Positions 24,360 to 30,989 of a stretch of DNA of 45,348 nucleotides are shown here, one piece after another. The DNA is taken from NCBI GenBank assembly GCA_027331445.1, contig DAHWUD010000006.1:1-45348 (forward strand). The letters run 5' to 3'. Position 1 is the stretch's first letter, and every line of letters begins with the position of its first letter. The translations under genes and the position numbers were made by a program. This DNA comes from Candidatus Amesbacteria bacterium (GTDB lineage Bacteria > Patescibacteriota > Microgenomatia > CAZETR01 > Amesbacteraceae). Below the pieces are notes generated by a model that had not been told where the DNA came from, did not search any database, and saw only the letters and a list, made by a program, of their open reading frames with translations.

Positions 24360-25319
24360 TCAGGGGCGAAGGTATTTGTCAACATTCAGATTCTGTTCGG
24401 CCCCGGTAGAAGCAAAGCGGGTGACGCCGTCGGTGCCGGTGAGGTAAAACCAGTACCCAGTAACCTGGGGGTGGAGAACGGCGGCGATCGAGGCCAGCCC
24501 GGGATTGGCGATGGGAGCGGGGGGAAGCCCGGGGTGAAGATAAGTATTGTAGGGGGAAGACACCCGGGTGTTCACCGGAGGCTGCCACCAACTACAGTTC
24601 AGGGGGGTAGCCTGGCAGCGGGAGGTGCCTTCGACGTACTGGACCGTGGCATCAACCTGGAGCGGCCAGCCGGCCCGGAGGCGATTTTGGAGGATGCCGG
24701 CAATAATCGGGCGGTCAGGGGCCTGTTTGGCTTCCCGTTCGACCAGGGAGGCCAGGATAAGATCGGAGGCAGAGATAGCGGGGACCTTGGCCGTGAAATT
24801 GGCAGAGATGATACGGATAACGTTTGAGGTGGTAGCGTAAGTCGGAATAAGGTAGGTGTCGGGAAACAGACGGCCTTCCAAGGTGGCGGTTTGGGCCAAA
24901 AAATCCTGAGGGGAAAAGGCTGAGTCGGCGGCCAGAGTCTCGGCCAGACGGGCGGCCATTTGTTCCCGGCGCCAGCCTTCGGGCAGAGTGACCCAGACGT
25001 CCTTGGGACCGGAAATAAGGGTTTTTACGAGGTCAGGGACGGACTGGGAAGGAGCGACCAGGTAAGCCCCGGGGCGAAGCCGGGAATCCAATTCGGTGAG
25101 ACGCAGGTAAATCTTGGCGGCGAGGGGGTTTTTGATGAGATGACGGGAAGATAAAGAGGCAACCACCTGGGCAGCTGTGGCTTGGGGAGGAATGACAAAC
25201 TGCTCCTCAGCAGTAACTTGCGGGTCGGCGGGAGCGAGGTTTTGGAAAAACCAAAAGCCGGCCAGGACTACGACGATGACAAAACCCGTAAAGATGAATA
25301 GAGCCAGGCGGAATTTCAC
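24360..25319 (-). CDS. mltG: Endolytic transglycosylase MltG
   Basis: TLPEGWRREQMAARLAETL, EGRLFPDTYLIP, LASLVEREAKQ, SPYNTYLHPGLPPAPIANPGLASIAAVLHP. Confidence 0.95.
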   Translation of the reverse strand: MKFRLALFIFTGFVIVVVLAGFWFFQNLAPADPQVTAEEQFVIPPQATAAQVVASLSSRHLIKNPLAAKIYLRLTELDSRLRPGAYLVAPSQSVPDLVKTLISGPKDVWVTLPEGWRREQMAARLAETLAADSAFSPQDFLAQTATLEGRLFPDTYLIPTYATTSNVIRIISANFTAKVPAISASDLILASLVEREAKQAPDRPIIAGILQNRLRAGWPLQVDATVQYVEGTSRCQATPLNCSWWQPPVNTRVSSPYNTYLHPGLPPAPIANPGLASIAAVLHPQVTGYWFYLTGTDGVTRFASTGAEQNLNVDKYLRP

Positions 25320-25517: not shown

Positions 25518-25895
25518 TCAAGATACTTTAATGGGTAAAGGGGCAGGAGTCAACTCCCTATCCAACCAGGATTGAAGAAGCAGCGTAGCGGCAACGGAGT
25601 GCTCCTGAGTTTTTCTGCGGGTTTGGGTGGTATGGAAAAGGGCGGATTGGGCGTCTTTAGTCGTCAGGGTTTCGTCAACCTGGTGGACGGGGAGGCCCAA
25701 AGATTTAAGAGCGGAGAGAAATCGGGGTTCCGACTGGCCGATGACCAGATGTGCTATCTGATACTGAACGATGAGTTTTTTTATTTGGGAGAGAGCGGAT
25801 GAAGTAGATAAAGTAGTTAAGGGTTCGGCCAAAGGACCGGCGGCTAAAGCCACCCCGACATGACCGGCGCCATAATCGAGACCTAGATAATTCAT
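25518..25895 (-). CDS. ruvX: Putative pre-16S rRNA nuclease / Holliday junction resolvase (YqgF)
   Basis: NYLGLDYGAGHVGVAL, HLVIGQ, VHQVDETLTTKDA, HSVAATLLLQSWLD. Confidence 0.88.
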   Translation of the reverse strand: MNYLGLDYGAGHVGVALAAGPLAEPLTTLSTSSALSQIKKLIVQYQIAHLVIGQSEPRFLSALKSLGLPVHQVDETLTTKDAQSALFHTTQTRRKTQEHSVAATLLLQSWLDRELTPAPLPIKVS

Positions 25896-25931: not shown

Positions 25932-26339
25932 ATGGAAAAGTTGGCGGCCGGGTTCATTGTCCTGTCACAGGACGGAAAACGGGAAGTGATAGGTAAAAAA
26001 AAAGAGAGTTCATCCAGTCCCCTGGCGGGGAAATGGCACATCCCCGCGGAAACAGCAGAAGCCGGAGAAAGTTTGTGGGACACTGTCAGGCGGGGCGCAG
26101 AACAGGAATTAGGAATATGGGTAAACGGATTGGTGGAAATTGACAGGATCGTTAATCCCTACGGGGTAGAAGTGCATTGGTTTGTATGCGGACCGTTTGG
26201 AAATGAAAAATTAACCCCCGGGTCGGATTTGGCGGAGGCAAAATGGGTGGAGAGAAAAAATGTGCTCGAGGAGATTGATCCATTAGCGGCAGAATTATTA
26301 CCGGAAAAAGTGAAACAATATCTAGAATCAGTCAGATAG
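25932..26339 (+). CDS. NUDIX hydrolase-like protein
   Basis: SPLAGKWHIPAETAEAGESLWDTVRRGAEQELGI, a Nudix box with substitutions. Confidence 0.8.
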   Translation: MEKLAAGFIVLSQDGKREVIGKKKESSSSPLAGKWHIPAETAEAGESLWDTVRRGAEQELGIWVNGLVEIDRIVNPYGVEVHWFVCGPFGNEKLTPGSDLAEAKWVERKNVLEEIDPLAAELLPEKVKQYLESVR

Positions 26340-26999
26340 TTCGGCCAGGACGATGAAGCGGTGCCAGTAGGTACCCAAGGGGACGCAGGTGATGAGAGTG
26401 ATTTCGGTGCGGTCATAATGCTGGGCAAAAACCTGAACGGCCGTGGGGTCAACCTCGGAAGTTTTATGGACGAGATAATGATAATTAACCCCGTCAAAAT
26501 TGACATAAATATCATCCCCGACCCGGGCGCCGGGCAAGGGATTAAAGATGGTCAAGGGGTTGCCGGATTGGTAAAACTGGGGCAGGGCGGAGTGACCGAT
26601 AATGACGGCGTTGCCGGGAGTGCCGGGAAGAGCAGTGCCGGGGTAATGGACGGCATTTTCGGCCAGATCGGTGCCATTAACTTCTACCGGGACGTCAAAT
26701 AATTTCAGCCGGGGGTAAGAAACGGTAAAATATTTAACCGGGGAGGAAACGGGAGCGGAAACCGGCGGGGAGACAAACCAGCTGGAAGCAGAGTCGTAGT
26801 CGGGGGCAGCGACGCCAAAGATATTGACGATCCGGGGGCCGGGGGCGCCTACGGCCAAAGGATCGATAAGGGAGGGGGGGCGAAATAAATAATAACGGGT
26901 AAATGAGAAACCCAGGGGCAGGATAACGCTGCCCAAACAGACGACTCCGGCGGTGATAAAGACCAGGGGAAGAAAACGGCTGAGAGGCAGGGAGGTCAC
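26328..26999 (-). CDS. Sortase family transpeptidase
   Basis: Catalytic His VIIGHSALP, Cys ITLITCVPLG and Arg YWHRFIVLAEL; N-terminal TM. Confidence 0.88.
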   Translation of the reverse strand: MTSLPLSRFLPLVFITAGVVCLGSVILPLGFSFTRYYLFRPPSLIDPLAVGAPGPRIVNIFGVAAPDYDSASSWFVSPPVSAPVSSPVKYFTVSYPRLKLFDVPVEVNGTDLAENAVHYPGTALPGTPGNAVIIGHSALPQFYQSGNPLTIFNPLPGARVGDDIYVNFDGVNYHYLVHKTSEVDPTAVQVFAQHYDRTEITLITCVPLGTYWHRFIVLAELSD

Positions 27000-29131
27000 T
27001 TCGCAGATTGCAGATTGAGACTAATGCGGGACGATTGGTGGGGCAGGAAGAATTGGAGAAATCCGGGAAGTTGGGGAGTAAATGTGATAGCGGAGTGAGT
27101 CACTCCGGGGAGGGAGTCCAAGTAACTGACTGCTTGGGCAGGAGATTGGCCGACGAGATGGGAAAGGACATCGTTTTGGGCAATTCTGGGAATTAAAGTA
27201 CCGGAAACCTGGACGGCGAGGGTGGTGGAATTACTAGCGATTTTTTTGACAGCCAGGGAGTGCTGCAGGTCGCCGGCTATAACATAATCCGCGGAAATCT
27301 GGGACTGAGTCTGGTTATGAATTATGCCGGCTAAATCGGCTTTAGCAAATGTCAGGCCCTGGGCCTTTTCGGTCAGACGGAGAGTAACGGTATCGGCCTG
27401 GTCACCAATCTGGTGGTCGAGGTCTTCGGACGCTGACTGAAGAGTGACCGTATCGGGAATCAGTTCATCTGCGGCAGGAATTTGGGAAGCCAGCTGGGTC
27501 CTGGCATTGCTTTGAAGCGAGGGAGTGAGGGCGGTACGAAGAGCGGCGACGTCGTCTTTACTGACCACTTTAACCTGGCTACTGGTACCTCCGGCCAGGG
27601 CGACGTCGTTTTTGGCGACAAAGTCCAGAGTGGAATAGGTGCCGATGCGGAACTGGGTCCCGGCGGAGAGATTACTGTCGCTACCGATTTGGGAAGCGGT
27701 GACATTAACCGTGGCTTTCCCCGGCTGGTAAGAATTGGGGTCGGCGGTACCGGAGGCGGAAGCGACCTGGACGTCGGAATCAAAAGTGAAAGCCAGGCCG
27801 GAAGGAGAAGTAATGGAAGTCCCGGCAGTGAAAGTGTGGGGAGCGCCGGTGCCGTTAATGACGGTGACTGAGCCGGTGGCCGGGTCCCCCACTAATTTGG
27901 TGCCGGTCGTCGGAGCAGATTTATCTGCCGACGCGGTAACTGATTGGACAGTACCAGGGATAACCCGATTAGCCGGATCAACAGCGACGGCTGCGGTGCC
28001 TACCGTCAGGTCAAACTGGGTGGCCAGGTTTTTGGGAACAACGGTAAGAGTCACCACGGCCCGGGGCAAATACCACAGCGCGGCAAAGGCGCCACAGAGC
28101 AAGGCGATGAGAATCAGGGGGAGGAAAATCAGGGAGAAATGAAGCCGGGGAAAAGAAATTTTAGGTAAGGAAGGCCGGGGCGGGGAGTGGGGAAAGGGAA
28201 TATACTCGGCCGCCGGTTCGGGTGTCGGAGGGGCGGCAGGCGAAGGGGCGGGTAATGGGTCGGTGTCGGGCAGAAAACCCAACTCCTGGGCGGTGGCTGA
28301 GGGAACCGGGGCGGGGGGGTGATCCTCCGGTTCCGAGGAGACGGAATCGGGAATAAGGCCTATCGACCTGGCGACTTCGGTACCGCCGGCGGTGGCGATG
28401 GCTCTAATGGTAAAGTCGCCGGGGAGAGCTTCAATTTTAGGAAAATGTAAAAATGATAAATGAGTTTGGGGGGCCTGCCAGGGATGGGCCAGCAATTGCT
28501 GTTTTTGATCCTCCAAATCTAATCCGGAGTCATACAGCAAGATGCGGGAGGGAAACATGTCCACATGGGAAAAGCGGGATAAGCCTTCGACGACATCGGC
28601 TACAATCTGGGGGCTGCGTCTGACGACCTGGGTACTGTCGATCCGGCCAAGGCGAACCAGAGTGACGGAAATTTCACGGGGCCAAAAACCGACCAAAATA
28701 ACATTAGGGGAAACCCCTTCGGTGTGCTGCAAAAACCGGACGACAGCATCAGGAGTAATGACAAACCCGACGGCCTGAAGGGAAAGTTTTTGGGTGACTG
28801 TGTGCAGGAGCTTAATTCTCCCGGGTTGGATCTTTTCCCCGGAAAGCCAATCCGGAGGCAGGCCCAGAATAACTTTCTCCGGAGAGACGGCCCCATTGGG
28901 ATCAAAGCGGGTGGCAGCGTCAGACAAGGTCTGATCGGTGGCGGTTAAAAGGCTATTTTCCGATTCCCCGTCCCAGTTGGCGGAGGAGCCGACCGCCAGA
29001 ACGTGGGTTTTGTCGTTAAGGACGGCCCAGATAGCACTTTTTACCGATGAGGGGCTAATCTCCAGGGCGAAAAAATATTCGCGGGTAGGGGCCGTCCCGG
29101 CAGATTTTTTTTTAAAAAACGGCAGGTTCAT
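26996..29131 (-). CDS. PilM/FtsA-like N-terminal region fused through a TM to a baseplate-J-like C-terminal region
   Basis: N-term YFFALEISPSSVKSAIWAVL...VILGLPPDWLSG (actin-like), Pro-rich linker, TM LIFLPLILIALLCGAFAALWYL, then VTLTVVPKNL...ATGSVTVINGTGAPHTFTAGTSITSPSGLAFTFDSDVQV (baseplate-J-like). Confidence 0.65.
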   Translation of the reverse strand: MNLPFFKKKSAGTAPTREYFFALEISPSSVKSAIWAVLNDKTHVLAVGSSANWDGESENSLLTATDQTLSDAATRFDPNGAVSPEKVILGLPPDWLSGEKIQPGRIKLLHTVTQKLSLQAVGFVITPDAVVRFLQHTEGVSPNVILVGFWPREISVTLVRLGRIDSTQVVRRSPQIVADVVEGLSRFSHVDMFPSRILLYDSGLDLEDQKQQLLAHPWQAPQTHLSFLHFPKIEALPGDFTIRAIATAGGTEVARSIGLIPDSVSSEPEDHPPAPVPSATAQELGFLPDTDPLPAPSPAAPPTPEPAAEYIPFPHSPPRPSLPKISFPRLHFSLIFLPLILIALLCGAFAALWYLPRAVVTLTVVPKNLATQFDLTVGTAAVAVDPANRVIPGTVQSVTASADKSAPTTGTKLVGDPATGSVTVINGTGAPHTFTAGTSITSPSGLAFTFDSDVQVASASGTADPNSYQPGKATVNVTASQIGSDSNLSAGTQFRIGTYSTLDFVAKNDVALAGGTSSQVKVVSKDDVAALRTALTPSLQSNARTQLASQIPAADELIPDTVTLQSASEDLDHQIGDQADTVTLRLTEKAQGLTFAKADLAGIIHNQTQSQISADYVIAGDLQHSLAVKKIASNSTTLAVQVSGTLIPRIAQNDVLSHLVGQSPAQAVSYLDSLPGVTHSAITFTPQLPGFLQFFLPHQSSRISLNLQSAK

Positions 29132-29183: not shown

Positions 29184-30989
29184 TTAATGAGAATCAAGTT
29201 TGGCATAGATACGACGTACGCCGGCTCCGGCCGATTCTTCCTTCACTATCTTAATCTTTCCGATCTCACCTGTCGATGCGACATGAGGGCCGCCGCAAAG
29301 CTCCTTGCTGTACCAATCGTTCAGGGGGCCAATGGTGTAAACGGAGGTAGTTTCCGGATATTTTTCCGGGAAAAAAGCCATCGCGCCCTCGGCGAGAGCT
29401 TTGGCTTTGGGCATCTCCTGACGGGTGACCGGCAGATCCTCGGCAATTTTTTGATTAATCGTGTCTTCAATTAATTGAAGTTGATCCGGGGTCAACTTGG
29501 CGGGGTGAGAAAAATCGAAACGCAGCCTTTCGGAGGTGATGTTACTCCCCTTCTGCTGGACATGAGTCCCCAGAATATCGCGCAGGGCTTTGTGCAGCAA
29601 ATGAGTGGCGGTGTGATATTTGGTAACGGTCTCGGAATGATCTTCCAGTCCCCCTTTAAACATGCCTTTGCTGGCGGTACGGGAAAGATCCTGGTGCTTT
29701 TTGAATTCGGCTTCAAATTGACTTTTGTCCACAGTCTGGCCTTTTTCTGTGGCTAATTCCATTGTTACTTCCAAGGGAAACCCGTAGGTCTGAAATAAAT
29801 CGAAAGCAATCCGGCCGTCGATTTGACTCAATTTATTGAATTCGCGCAACCCCCTGGTGAGAGTCTGAGAAAAACGATCGCGTTCATCGGAAACAATTTT
29901 TTGAATATAATCTTTTTTTTCGGACAAGGCGGGATAAGCGTTTTGATAAATGTCGACAACGGCGTCGATAACCTGACCATAATCAAAAACCCGATCAGTA
30001 AGTTTTTGGGCTTTGACCATGGCCCGCCTCATAAGACGTCTTAAGAAATAGCCTTGGGTTTTGTTGGAAGGAATAACGCCATCAGAAATTAAAAAAACGG
30101 CGGCTTTAAGATGATCGGTGATAATACGCAGGACATATTTGTCCTGAGGCCGGGTGTAGTCCAGAGAAAGCTGTGTTTCAAGAACCCGGATGACCGGAGT
30201 ATAGAGATCGGTGAGGAAAATATCCGGGTCATTATTGGCGGCTGCCAGAGTACGCTCCAATCCCCCGCCAAAATCAATATTCTTTTTTTCCAGCGGGACA
30301 AACCCGTGCTCCGTTTTCCGATAGGTCATAAAGACAGAGTTACCTATTTCCAGAAATCGGCCGCAATCACAGTTGGGATGGCAGGCCTGATCTTTAAAGC
30401 GGGATTTTTCGTGCAAGTGCAGGTCGGCCCCAAAATCATAAAAGACTTCGGAATCGGGACCACCGGGTTCACCTACCGGCATGCGGGATTTTATGCCGGC
30501 CCGGGACCACCAATTTTTGGTTTCGTCATAGGGACGAATTTTGTCCTCGGAAACGCCCAAATTTTTCCAAATATTAATGGCTTCTTCGTCTTTAGGAATG
30601 ACATCGTCACCGCCAAAAACGGAAACCCATAATTTTTCCCGGGGAAGACCAAGTTCCCGGGTGAGAAATTCATAAAACCAAGTTAGCTGGGCTTCTTTGA
30701 AGTAATCGCCCAAGGACCAGTTGCCCAACATTTCGAAAAAGGAGTCGTGACGATTGTCGCCGACTTCTTCGATATCCTGGGCCCGGAAGCATTTTTGAGA
30801 GTCGACCAGCCGGGAACCCAGGGGATGAGGCTGGCCTAACAGATAAGGGACCATGGGCTGCATACCGGATCCGGTAAAAAGGGTCGAGGGATCGTTTTCG
30901 GGGACCAAGGGGGCCGAGGGGATCTGTTTGTGTCCCCTAGCCACAAAAAAATCAATGTATTTCTGACGAAGCTGGTTGCCGGTCAACAT
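29184..30989 (-). CDS. alaS: Alanine--tRNA ligase, short form
   Basis: TGNQLRQKYIDFFVARGHKQIPSAPLVPENDPSTLFTGSGMQPMVPYLLG; editing motifs HTATHLLHKALRD and ELCGGPHV. Ends soon after. Confidence 0.95.
   Translation of the reverse strand: MLTGNQLRQKYIDFFVARGHKQIPSAPLVPENDPSTLFTGSGMQPMVPYLLGQPHPLGSRLVDSQKCFRAQDIEEVGDNRHDSFFEMLGNWSLGDYFKEAQLTWFYEFLTRELGLPREKLWVSVFGGDDVIPKDEEAINIWKNLGVSEDKIRPYDETKNWWSRAGIKSRMPVGEPGGPDSEVFYDFGADLHLHEKSRFKDQACHPNCDCGRFLEIGNSVFMTYRKTEHGFVPLEKKNIDFGGGLERTLAAANNDPDIFLTDLYTPVIRVLETQLSLDYTRPQDKYVLRIITDHLKAAVFLISDGVIPSNKTQGYFLRRLMRRAMVKAQKLTDRVFDYGQVIDAVVDIYQNAYPALSEKKDYIQKIVSDERDRFSQTLTRGLREFNKLSQIDGRIAFDLFQTYGFPLEVTMELATEKGQTVDKSQFEAEFKKHQDLSRTASKGMFKGGLEDHSETVTKYHTATHLLHKALRDILGTHVQQKGSNITSERLRFDFSHPAKLTPDQLQLIEDTINQKIAEDLPVTRQEMPKAKALAEGAMAFFPEKYPETTSVYTIGPLNDWYSKELCGGPHVASTGEIGKIKIVKEESAGAGVRRIYAKLDSH

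Follow-up and report, generated by a model that had tools for sequence, protein, structure and literature searches.

What does a protein do that carries an actin-like half inside the cell and a baseplate-like half outside it, and how is it tied to the sortase whose gene it overlaps? The question is raised by a gene pair in the window (the whole stretch of 45,348 nt analysed here), contig C56 of a Candidatus Amesbacteria genome (925 kb, 94% complete), for which an earlier note had proposed an undescribed surface or attachment system. The longer gene (26996–29131, minus strand) starts at ATG and encodes 711 amino acids, and its stop overlaps the GTG start of the sortase ORF by 4 nt (GTGA at 26999–26996), as that note had read it. 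A chance or mis-called ORF can be ruled out, because 56/59 related genomes encode the same fusion protein. Its closest named relatives are found in Candidatus Amesbacteria (up to 53% identity), and a GTDB pattern scan with the fused form, based on a closer 15-row alignment since the 46-row one was too divergent, gave named matches of Patescibacteria type only.

Structure prediction supports both halves of the protein. The AlphaFold2 model built with 75 relatives (mean pLDDT 90) consists of a globular region at about residues 18–258, a disordered linker, a transmembrane (TM) helix and an ectodomain folded from residue 357 to the C-terminus. The cytoplasmic actin-fold domain of FtsA/PilM type (residues 18–258) is encoded at 28358–29080, the Pro-rich disordered linker (259–334), which contains a conserved LGF motif at residues 284–286, at 28130–28357, and the single TM helix (336–354), apparent in both model and sequence, at 28070–28126, all on the minus strand; the proposed linker and lone membrane span are thus borne out. 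Among PDB structures, Foldseek matches the N-terminal half to PilM (5eoy, 8.5e-8), the PilM:PilN complex, FtsA and PPX/GppA. This half has no Pfam match, and single-protein Pfam and NCBIfam scans miss the actin domain, which is detectable through profiles and structure.

The external part resembles baseplate proteins mainly in one domain. Foldseek matches the C-terminal half to baseplate proteins of phi812 (3.4e-7), A-1(L) and XM1 and to the GlxA barrel, and GlxA barrels match about as well as the baseplate proteins do. Baseplate_J (PF04865) is weak on the window protein alone (18.2 against a gathering cut-off of 21.1; E 0.0017), while 39/46 relatives match it at E ≤ 0.1 (best 3.9e-8) and profile comparison with PDB baseplate proteins gives 3.4e-5. 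The likeness is mainly confined to a beta-barrel of baseplate-J/GlxA type at about residues 413–516 (27584–27895, minus strand). The distal alpha/beta domain (residues 522–711; 26999–27568, minus strand), modelled alone at pLDDT 95, found no match in the PDB better than E ~0.8 and is therefore not recognisable as the ferredoxin fold of PilN, PilO or GspL. Matches to retroviral polyproteins in the BFVD fold search had tiny TM-scores and were set aside as chance.

The sortase gene (26328–26999, minus strand) encodes 223 amino acids with an N-terminal hydrophobic anchor. The product belongs to PF04203 (2e-22) and exceeds the TIGR01076 cut-off; among 43 relatives the catalytic residues H136 and R214 never vary, and at least 90% keep C205. 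All sortase class models fall under their curated cut-offs (class C, 52.7 against 160; class E, 41.9 against 160; class D, 35.1 against 165). A NUDIX gene on the plus strand (25932–26339) converges on the sortase gene, the two sharing 12 nt at the 3′ end of the latter. The fusion protein itself lacks a C-terminal sorting motif with TM segment and basic tail: it ends in ISLNLQSAK, and the model has no C-terminal TM helix. An LPXTG_anchor search of the window's genome returned mostly noise, with one clear signal (TPKTG) and one possible signal (IPVSG), both elsewhere in the genome. The first belongs to a 258-aa ORF whose C-terminal end consists of TPKTG, a hydrophobic segment and basic residues; this ORF adjoins a second sortase gene (C22:14767-15587), with which it likely forms a dedicated sortase–substrate pair. 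The other belongs to a 482-aa ORF (G000:C33:33294-33371) whose Pro/Thr-rich C-terminal part ends in IPVSGE, a hydrophobic stretch and YKKTAA, possibly a non-canonical sorting signal. The search for sorting signals and pilus genes that the earlier note had suggested thus yielded a TPKTG protein and a separate PilM, the former beside a different sortase.

Gene order around the pair is strongly conserved in Microgenomates: alaS, fusion, sortase, ruvX, mltG. In the window, the upstream neighbour alaS lies at 29184–30989 and the downstream neighbours ruvX and mltG/yceG at 25518–25895 and 24360–25319, all on the minus strand. Across 77 named loci, the sortase gene is directly 3′ of the fusion gene in 65, alaS is at most four genes upstream in 73, and ruvX and mltG each lie close by in 62, counts for the latter two that include contigs ending early. 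A set of 55 class loci from whole genomes, which shares organisms with the named set, gave a sortase directly downstream in 47, alaS in 48, and ruvX and mltG in 40 each. Most fusion and sortase genes overlap or sit a few bases apart, a 4-nt overlap being the commonest junction, and the two are probably co-translated in Microgenomates. Synteny between fusion and sortase, which the earlier note had asked to be checked, is accordingly conserved. In several named loci ruvX stands directly behind instead, six of them with fusion genes, so that no sortase is adjacent, and in one genome (G039) the nearest relative of the sortase is located elsewhere. Outside the window, genes were called as mechanical ORFs.

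The membrane part of the protein extends far beyond this class. A profile search found it in 278/287 genomes across the phylum, and outside Microgenomates it is typically a separate protein of 500–600 aa. We fetched 40 loci from outside the class, 39 of them usable for the position of the actin gene, and in 30/39 a separate actin-family gene (mostly 375–450 aa) lies directly upstream of the membrane partner, for example at L144:6236-7498 before a partner at L144:7516-9177. The operon of this split form reads alaS, FtsA/PilM-type actin, baseplate-J membrane protein, ruvX, mltG. Two genomes of the same class as the window's (G030 and G050) also have the split form, with no adjacent sortase. For the stand-alone actin the best-scoring model is FtsA (2.5e-38); 24/30 match PilM_2, and some have amphipathic-looking C-termini. 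About a quarter of the sampled stand-alone membrane partners have no adjacent actin gene, so the pairing is not obligatory. The sortase at the locus is thus separable and specific to Microgenomates; it is no inseparable part, because the core module occurs phylum-wide with no sortase beside it and because some fusion loci have none.

Several features of the split loci deserve mention. Stand-alone membrane partners (for example, L137:7107-8702 and L144:7516-9177) carry a small conserved N-terminal cytoplasmic domain (LVxPKxxxLxSxxNLKLL...GK) that is missing from the fusion, as if the actin domain had taken its place; it may be a docking site for the actin. A phosphoglucose-isomerase-like gene replaces the actin gene between alaS and the membrane partner in at least three loci (for example, L148:5313-6527). 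In five loci (L142, L145, L146, L147 and L151) the operon runs past mltG into a gene of about 350 aa and mreC, whose MreC product was confirmed by Pfam in one locus.

How did the one-piece form arise? Profile alignment ties the fused actin domain to the stand-alone FtsA-like proteins (hhalign 99.8%, 2.8e-30) and, with the fold matches to PilM and FtsA, upholds the idea of a PilM/FtsA-like intracellular part; two segments, corresponding to about residues 101–166 and 262–308 of the stand-alone form, are missing from the fused domain. In a tree of the C-terminal part, 46 fused proteins fall on one side of a branch whose support is moderate (86/75, with a bootstrap that had not settled), and split forms of the same class lie beyond the fused group. 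Adjacent split genes apparently merged once, in Microgenomates. By simple pattern, the phosphate-1 motif is present in 25/30 stand-alone actins and 2/75 fused proteins and the phosphate-2 motif in 18/30 and 0/75, respectively. With its nucleotide-binding motifs decayed, the fused domain is therefore unlikely to function as an ATPase. An actin-fold link across the membrane, as first imagined, is what the model contains, and it is the ATPase part of that idea that is unlikely to hold.

The module is conserved, and it differs from the known actins of cell division, cell shape and pili. Identity with FtsA, PilM or MreB was ruled out by separate copies elsewhere in the genomes: a separate FtsA exceeds the curated TIGR01174 cut-off of 175.85 bits in 24/25 genomes tested, which also hold PilM- and MreB-like genes, and the window's genome has a separate PilM on another contig (G000:C44:44591-45586). 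The stand-alone actin reaches only ~32–112 bits against TIGR01174 in the genome search. Its own profile scores above 500 bits in two control genomes with the membrane part and at most 114 bits, as cross-matches, in seven genomes lacking that part, so that within this set the actin was not found without its partner; the reverse case exists in six genomes. Genomes lacking the module retain FtsA and mostly also MreB- and PilM-like matches, so the module neither depends on nor is required by those systems in any simple way.

We consider it probable that the module is a Patescibacteria-wide coupler of an actin to the cell envelope, present as a single transmembrane protein in Microgenomates. On our best reading it would work like PilM–PilN or GspL with an unrelated ectodomain. 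The stand-alone actin would dock on its membrane partner's short cytoplasmic part, as PilM does with PilN, and once docked would recruit or organise it. In the fusion, docking would be permanent, and the actin domain would therefore serve as a platform with no catalytic role, as in GspL; the lost motifs suggest an ATP cycle that became dispensable at that point. The ectodomain may extend into or across the wall and form or anchor an oligomeric assembly at the surface or in association with the wall, and a baseplate-J barrel is compatible with packing into a ring or wedge. In Microgenomates the sortase might attach a surface protein close to the coupler, and we infer that it is an accessory rather than the core of the machine. 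We hold only tentatively, as a rather doubtful proposition, that the module is a separate envelope machine across Patescibacteria, driven or positioned by its own actin, whose baseplate-like ectodomains build a host-attachment structure, with Microgenomates having turned it into a fixed scaffold that has its own dedicated sortase.

The main rival, possible though doubtful in our judgement, holds that an FtsA-like actin and its partner guide MltG, MreBCD–PBP2 or the divisome, as an accessory to wall growth or division and not part of a surface structure. It draws on the FtsA model being the best-scoring one for the stand-alone actin, on the frequency of mltG in the operon and its continuation in several loci to the ~350-aa gene and mreC, and on an actin-family match in an operon continuation (G117:C1:628394). 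In alaS, ruvX and mltG the linkage is that of an ancient bacterial operon, and the module's position there may therefore reflect insertion and not function; the distinct FtsA in 24/25 genomes and the MreB-like matches beside it, together with the retention of FtsA and mostly of MreB-like matches where the module is missing, also count against this reading. That the module is instead a genuine assembly protein of type IV pili or type II secretion, orthologous to GspL or PilMN and serving a second pilus-like machine, is distinctly unlikely. Its architecture equals that of GspL, the N-terminal half has PilM and the PilM:PilN complex among its best folds, and most stand-alone actins match PilM_2; set against these are the separate PilM of the window's genome, a PilN elsewhere in 8/10 genomes (none detected in the window's genome), a distal ectodomain with no match to PilN, PilO or GspL, and conserved neighbours among which no pilus genes were recognised.

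In its full form the earlier proposal, a machine for surface or pilus assembly that needs the sortase as an essential partner, is unlikely in our view. The 65/77 named loci with a sortase directly 3′, mostly overlapping or a few bases away, and its conserved catalytic residues fit that view; the idea of a surface machine processed by the sortase finds partial support, and the synteny part of it stands. The essential role does not sit well with the phylum-wide module that has no adjacent sortase, the six named fusion loci with ruvX directly 3′, the displaced relative in G039, or a fusion protein with no LPxTG-like signal in a genome whose clearest substrate adjoins another sortase. Descent from a domesticated phage tail or contractile-injection baseplate would account for a baseplate-J barrel seen by both HMM and fold, and is nonetheless very improbable: the barrel is mainly what is shared, GlxA barrels match it about equally, there are no tail genes among the annotated neighbours, and the membrane part in 278/287 genomes indicates vertical inheritance. 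A phage remnant was ruled out on the same absence of tail genes and vertical pattern.

The Patescibacteria form a very large group with small genomes, most of it uncultivated, and many of their distinguishing proteins have no known role. A membrane protein that nearly all sampled genomes carry, usually together with an FtsA/PilM-type actin of its own, is a candidate for a foundational envelope function, and the Microgenomates fusion is independent evidence that actin and membrane partner act together. For cultivated Saccharibacteria the coupler also leads to a specific prediction that can be tested, provided that the pair is present there. As far as the accessible literature goes, the pair has not been described, in keeping with the novelty first suggested for it. 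Our search did not find the candidate phyla radiation joined with baseplate J, and the accessible texts on Patescibacteria with FtsA or PilM do not describe the pair. Meheust et al. 2019 (PMC6744442) list PilM as a separate family and find most CPR-enriched families poorly annotated; their main text leaves the actin/baseplate-J pair undescribed and ties the sortase to neither an actin-like nor a baseplate-J protein. In a saccharibacterium, 73/116 Patescibacteria-enriched genes proved essential by Tn-seq (PMC10633639), and the pair is not named in the accessible portion of that paper.

Several known systems come close to parts of the locus. The sortase is probably a member of fam000526, a Microgenomates sortase family that is near ubiquitous in that class according to Meheust et al. 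2019 (PMC6744442). With baseplate J/gp47 phage proteins and the GlxA barrel the fusion has one beta-barrel domain in common; it is instead TM-anchored and cellular, its distal domain is unlike solved structures, and no tail or baseplate gene cluster surrounds the module in the neighbourhoods examined. FtsA, with bitopic partners such as FtsN, is the model that best matches the stand-alone actin, which mostly keeps the canonical motifs; the latter differs in falling under the FtsA cut-off and in being encoded with a baseplate-J partner. In the pilus and secretion systems, PilM binds a short cytoplasmic part of PilN, and PilMN is the orthologue of GspL (PMC4471445). Their periplasmic domain is ferredoxin-like and their neighbours are a pilus or secretion ATPase, platform or PilO genes, whereas the fusion carries a baseplate-J-type barrel and an unmatched domain and adjoins alaS, sortase, ruvX and mltG; because the distal ectodomain is not recognisably ferredoxin-like, the analogy is architectural only. 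GspL is not known to use nucleotide, and the nucleotide site of the fusion's actin domain is degenerate. Like GspL and PilM–PilN, the fusion joins a cytoplasmic domain of FtsA/PilM fold (8.5e-8 to PilM; 2.8e-30 to the stand-alone actin) to a membrane protein that crosses the bilayer once, through a single TM helix (336–354) placed after that domain.
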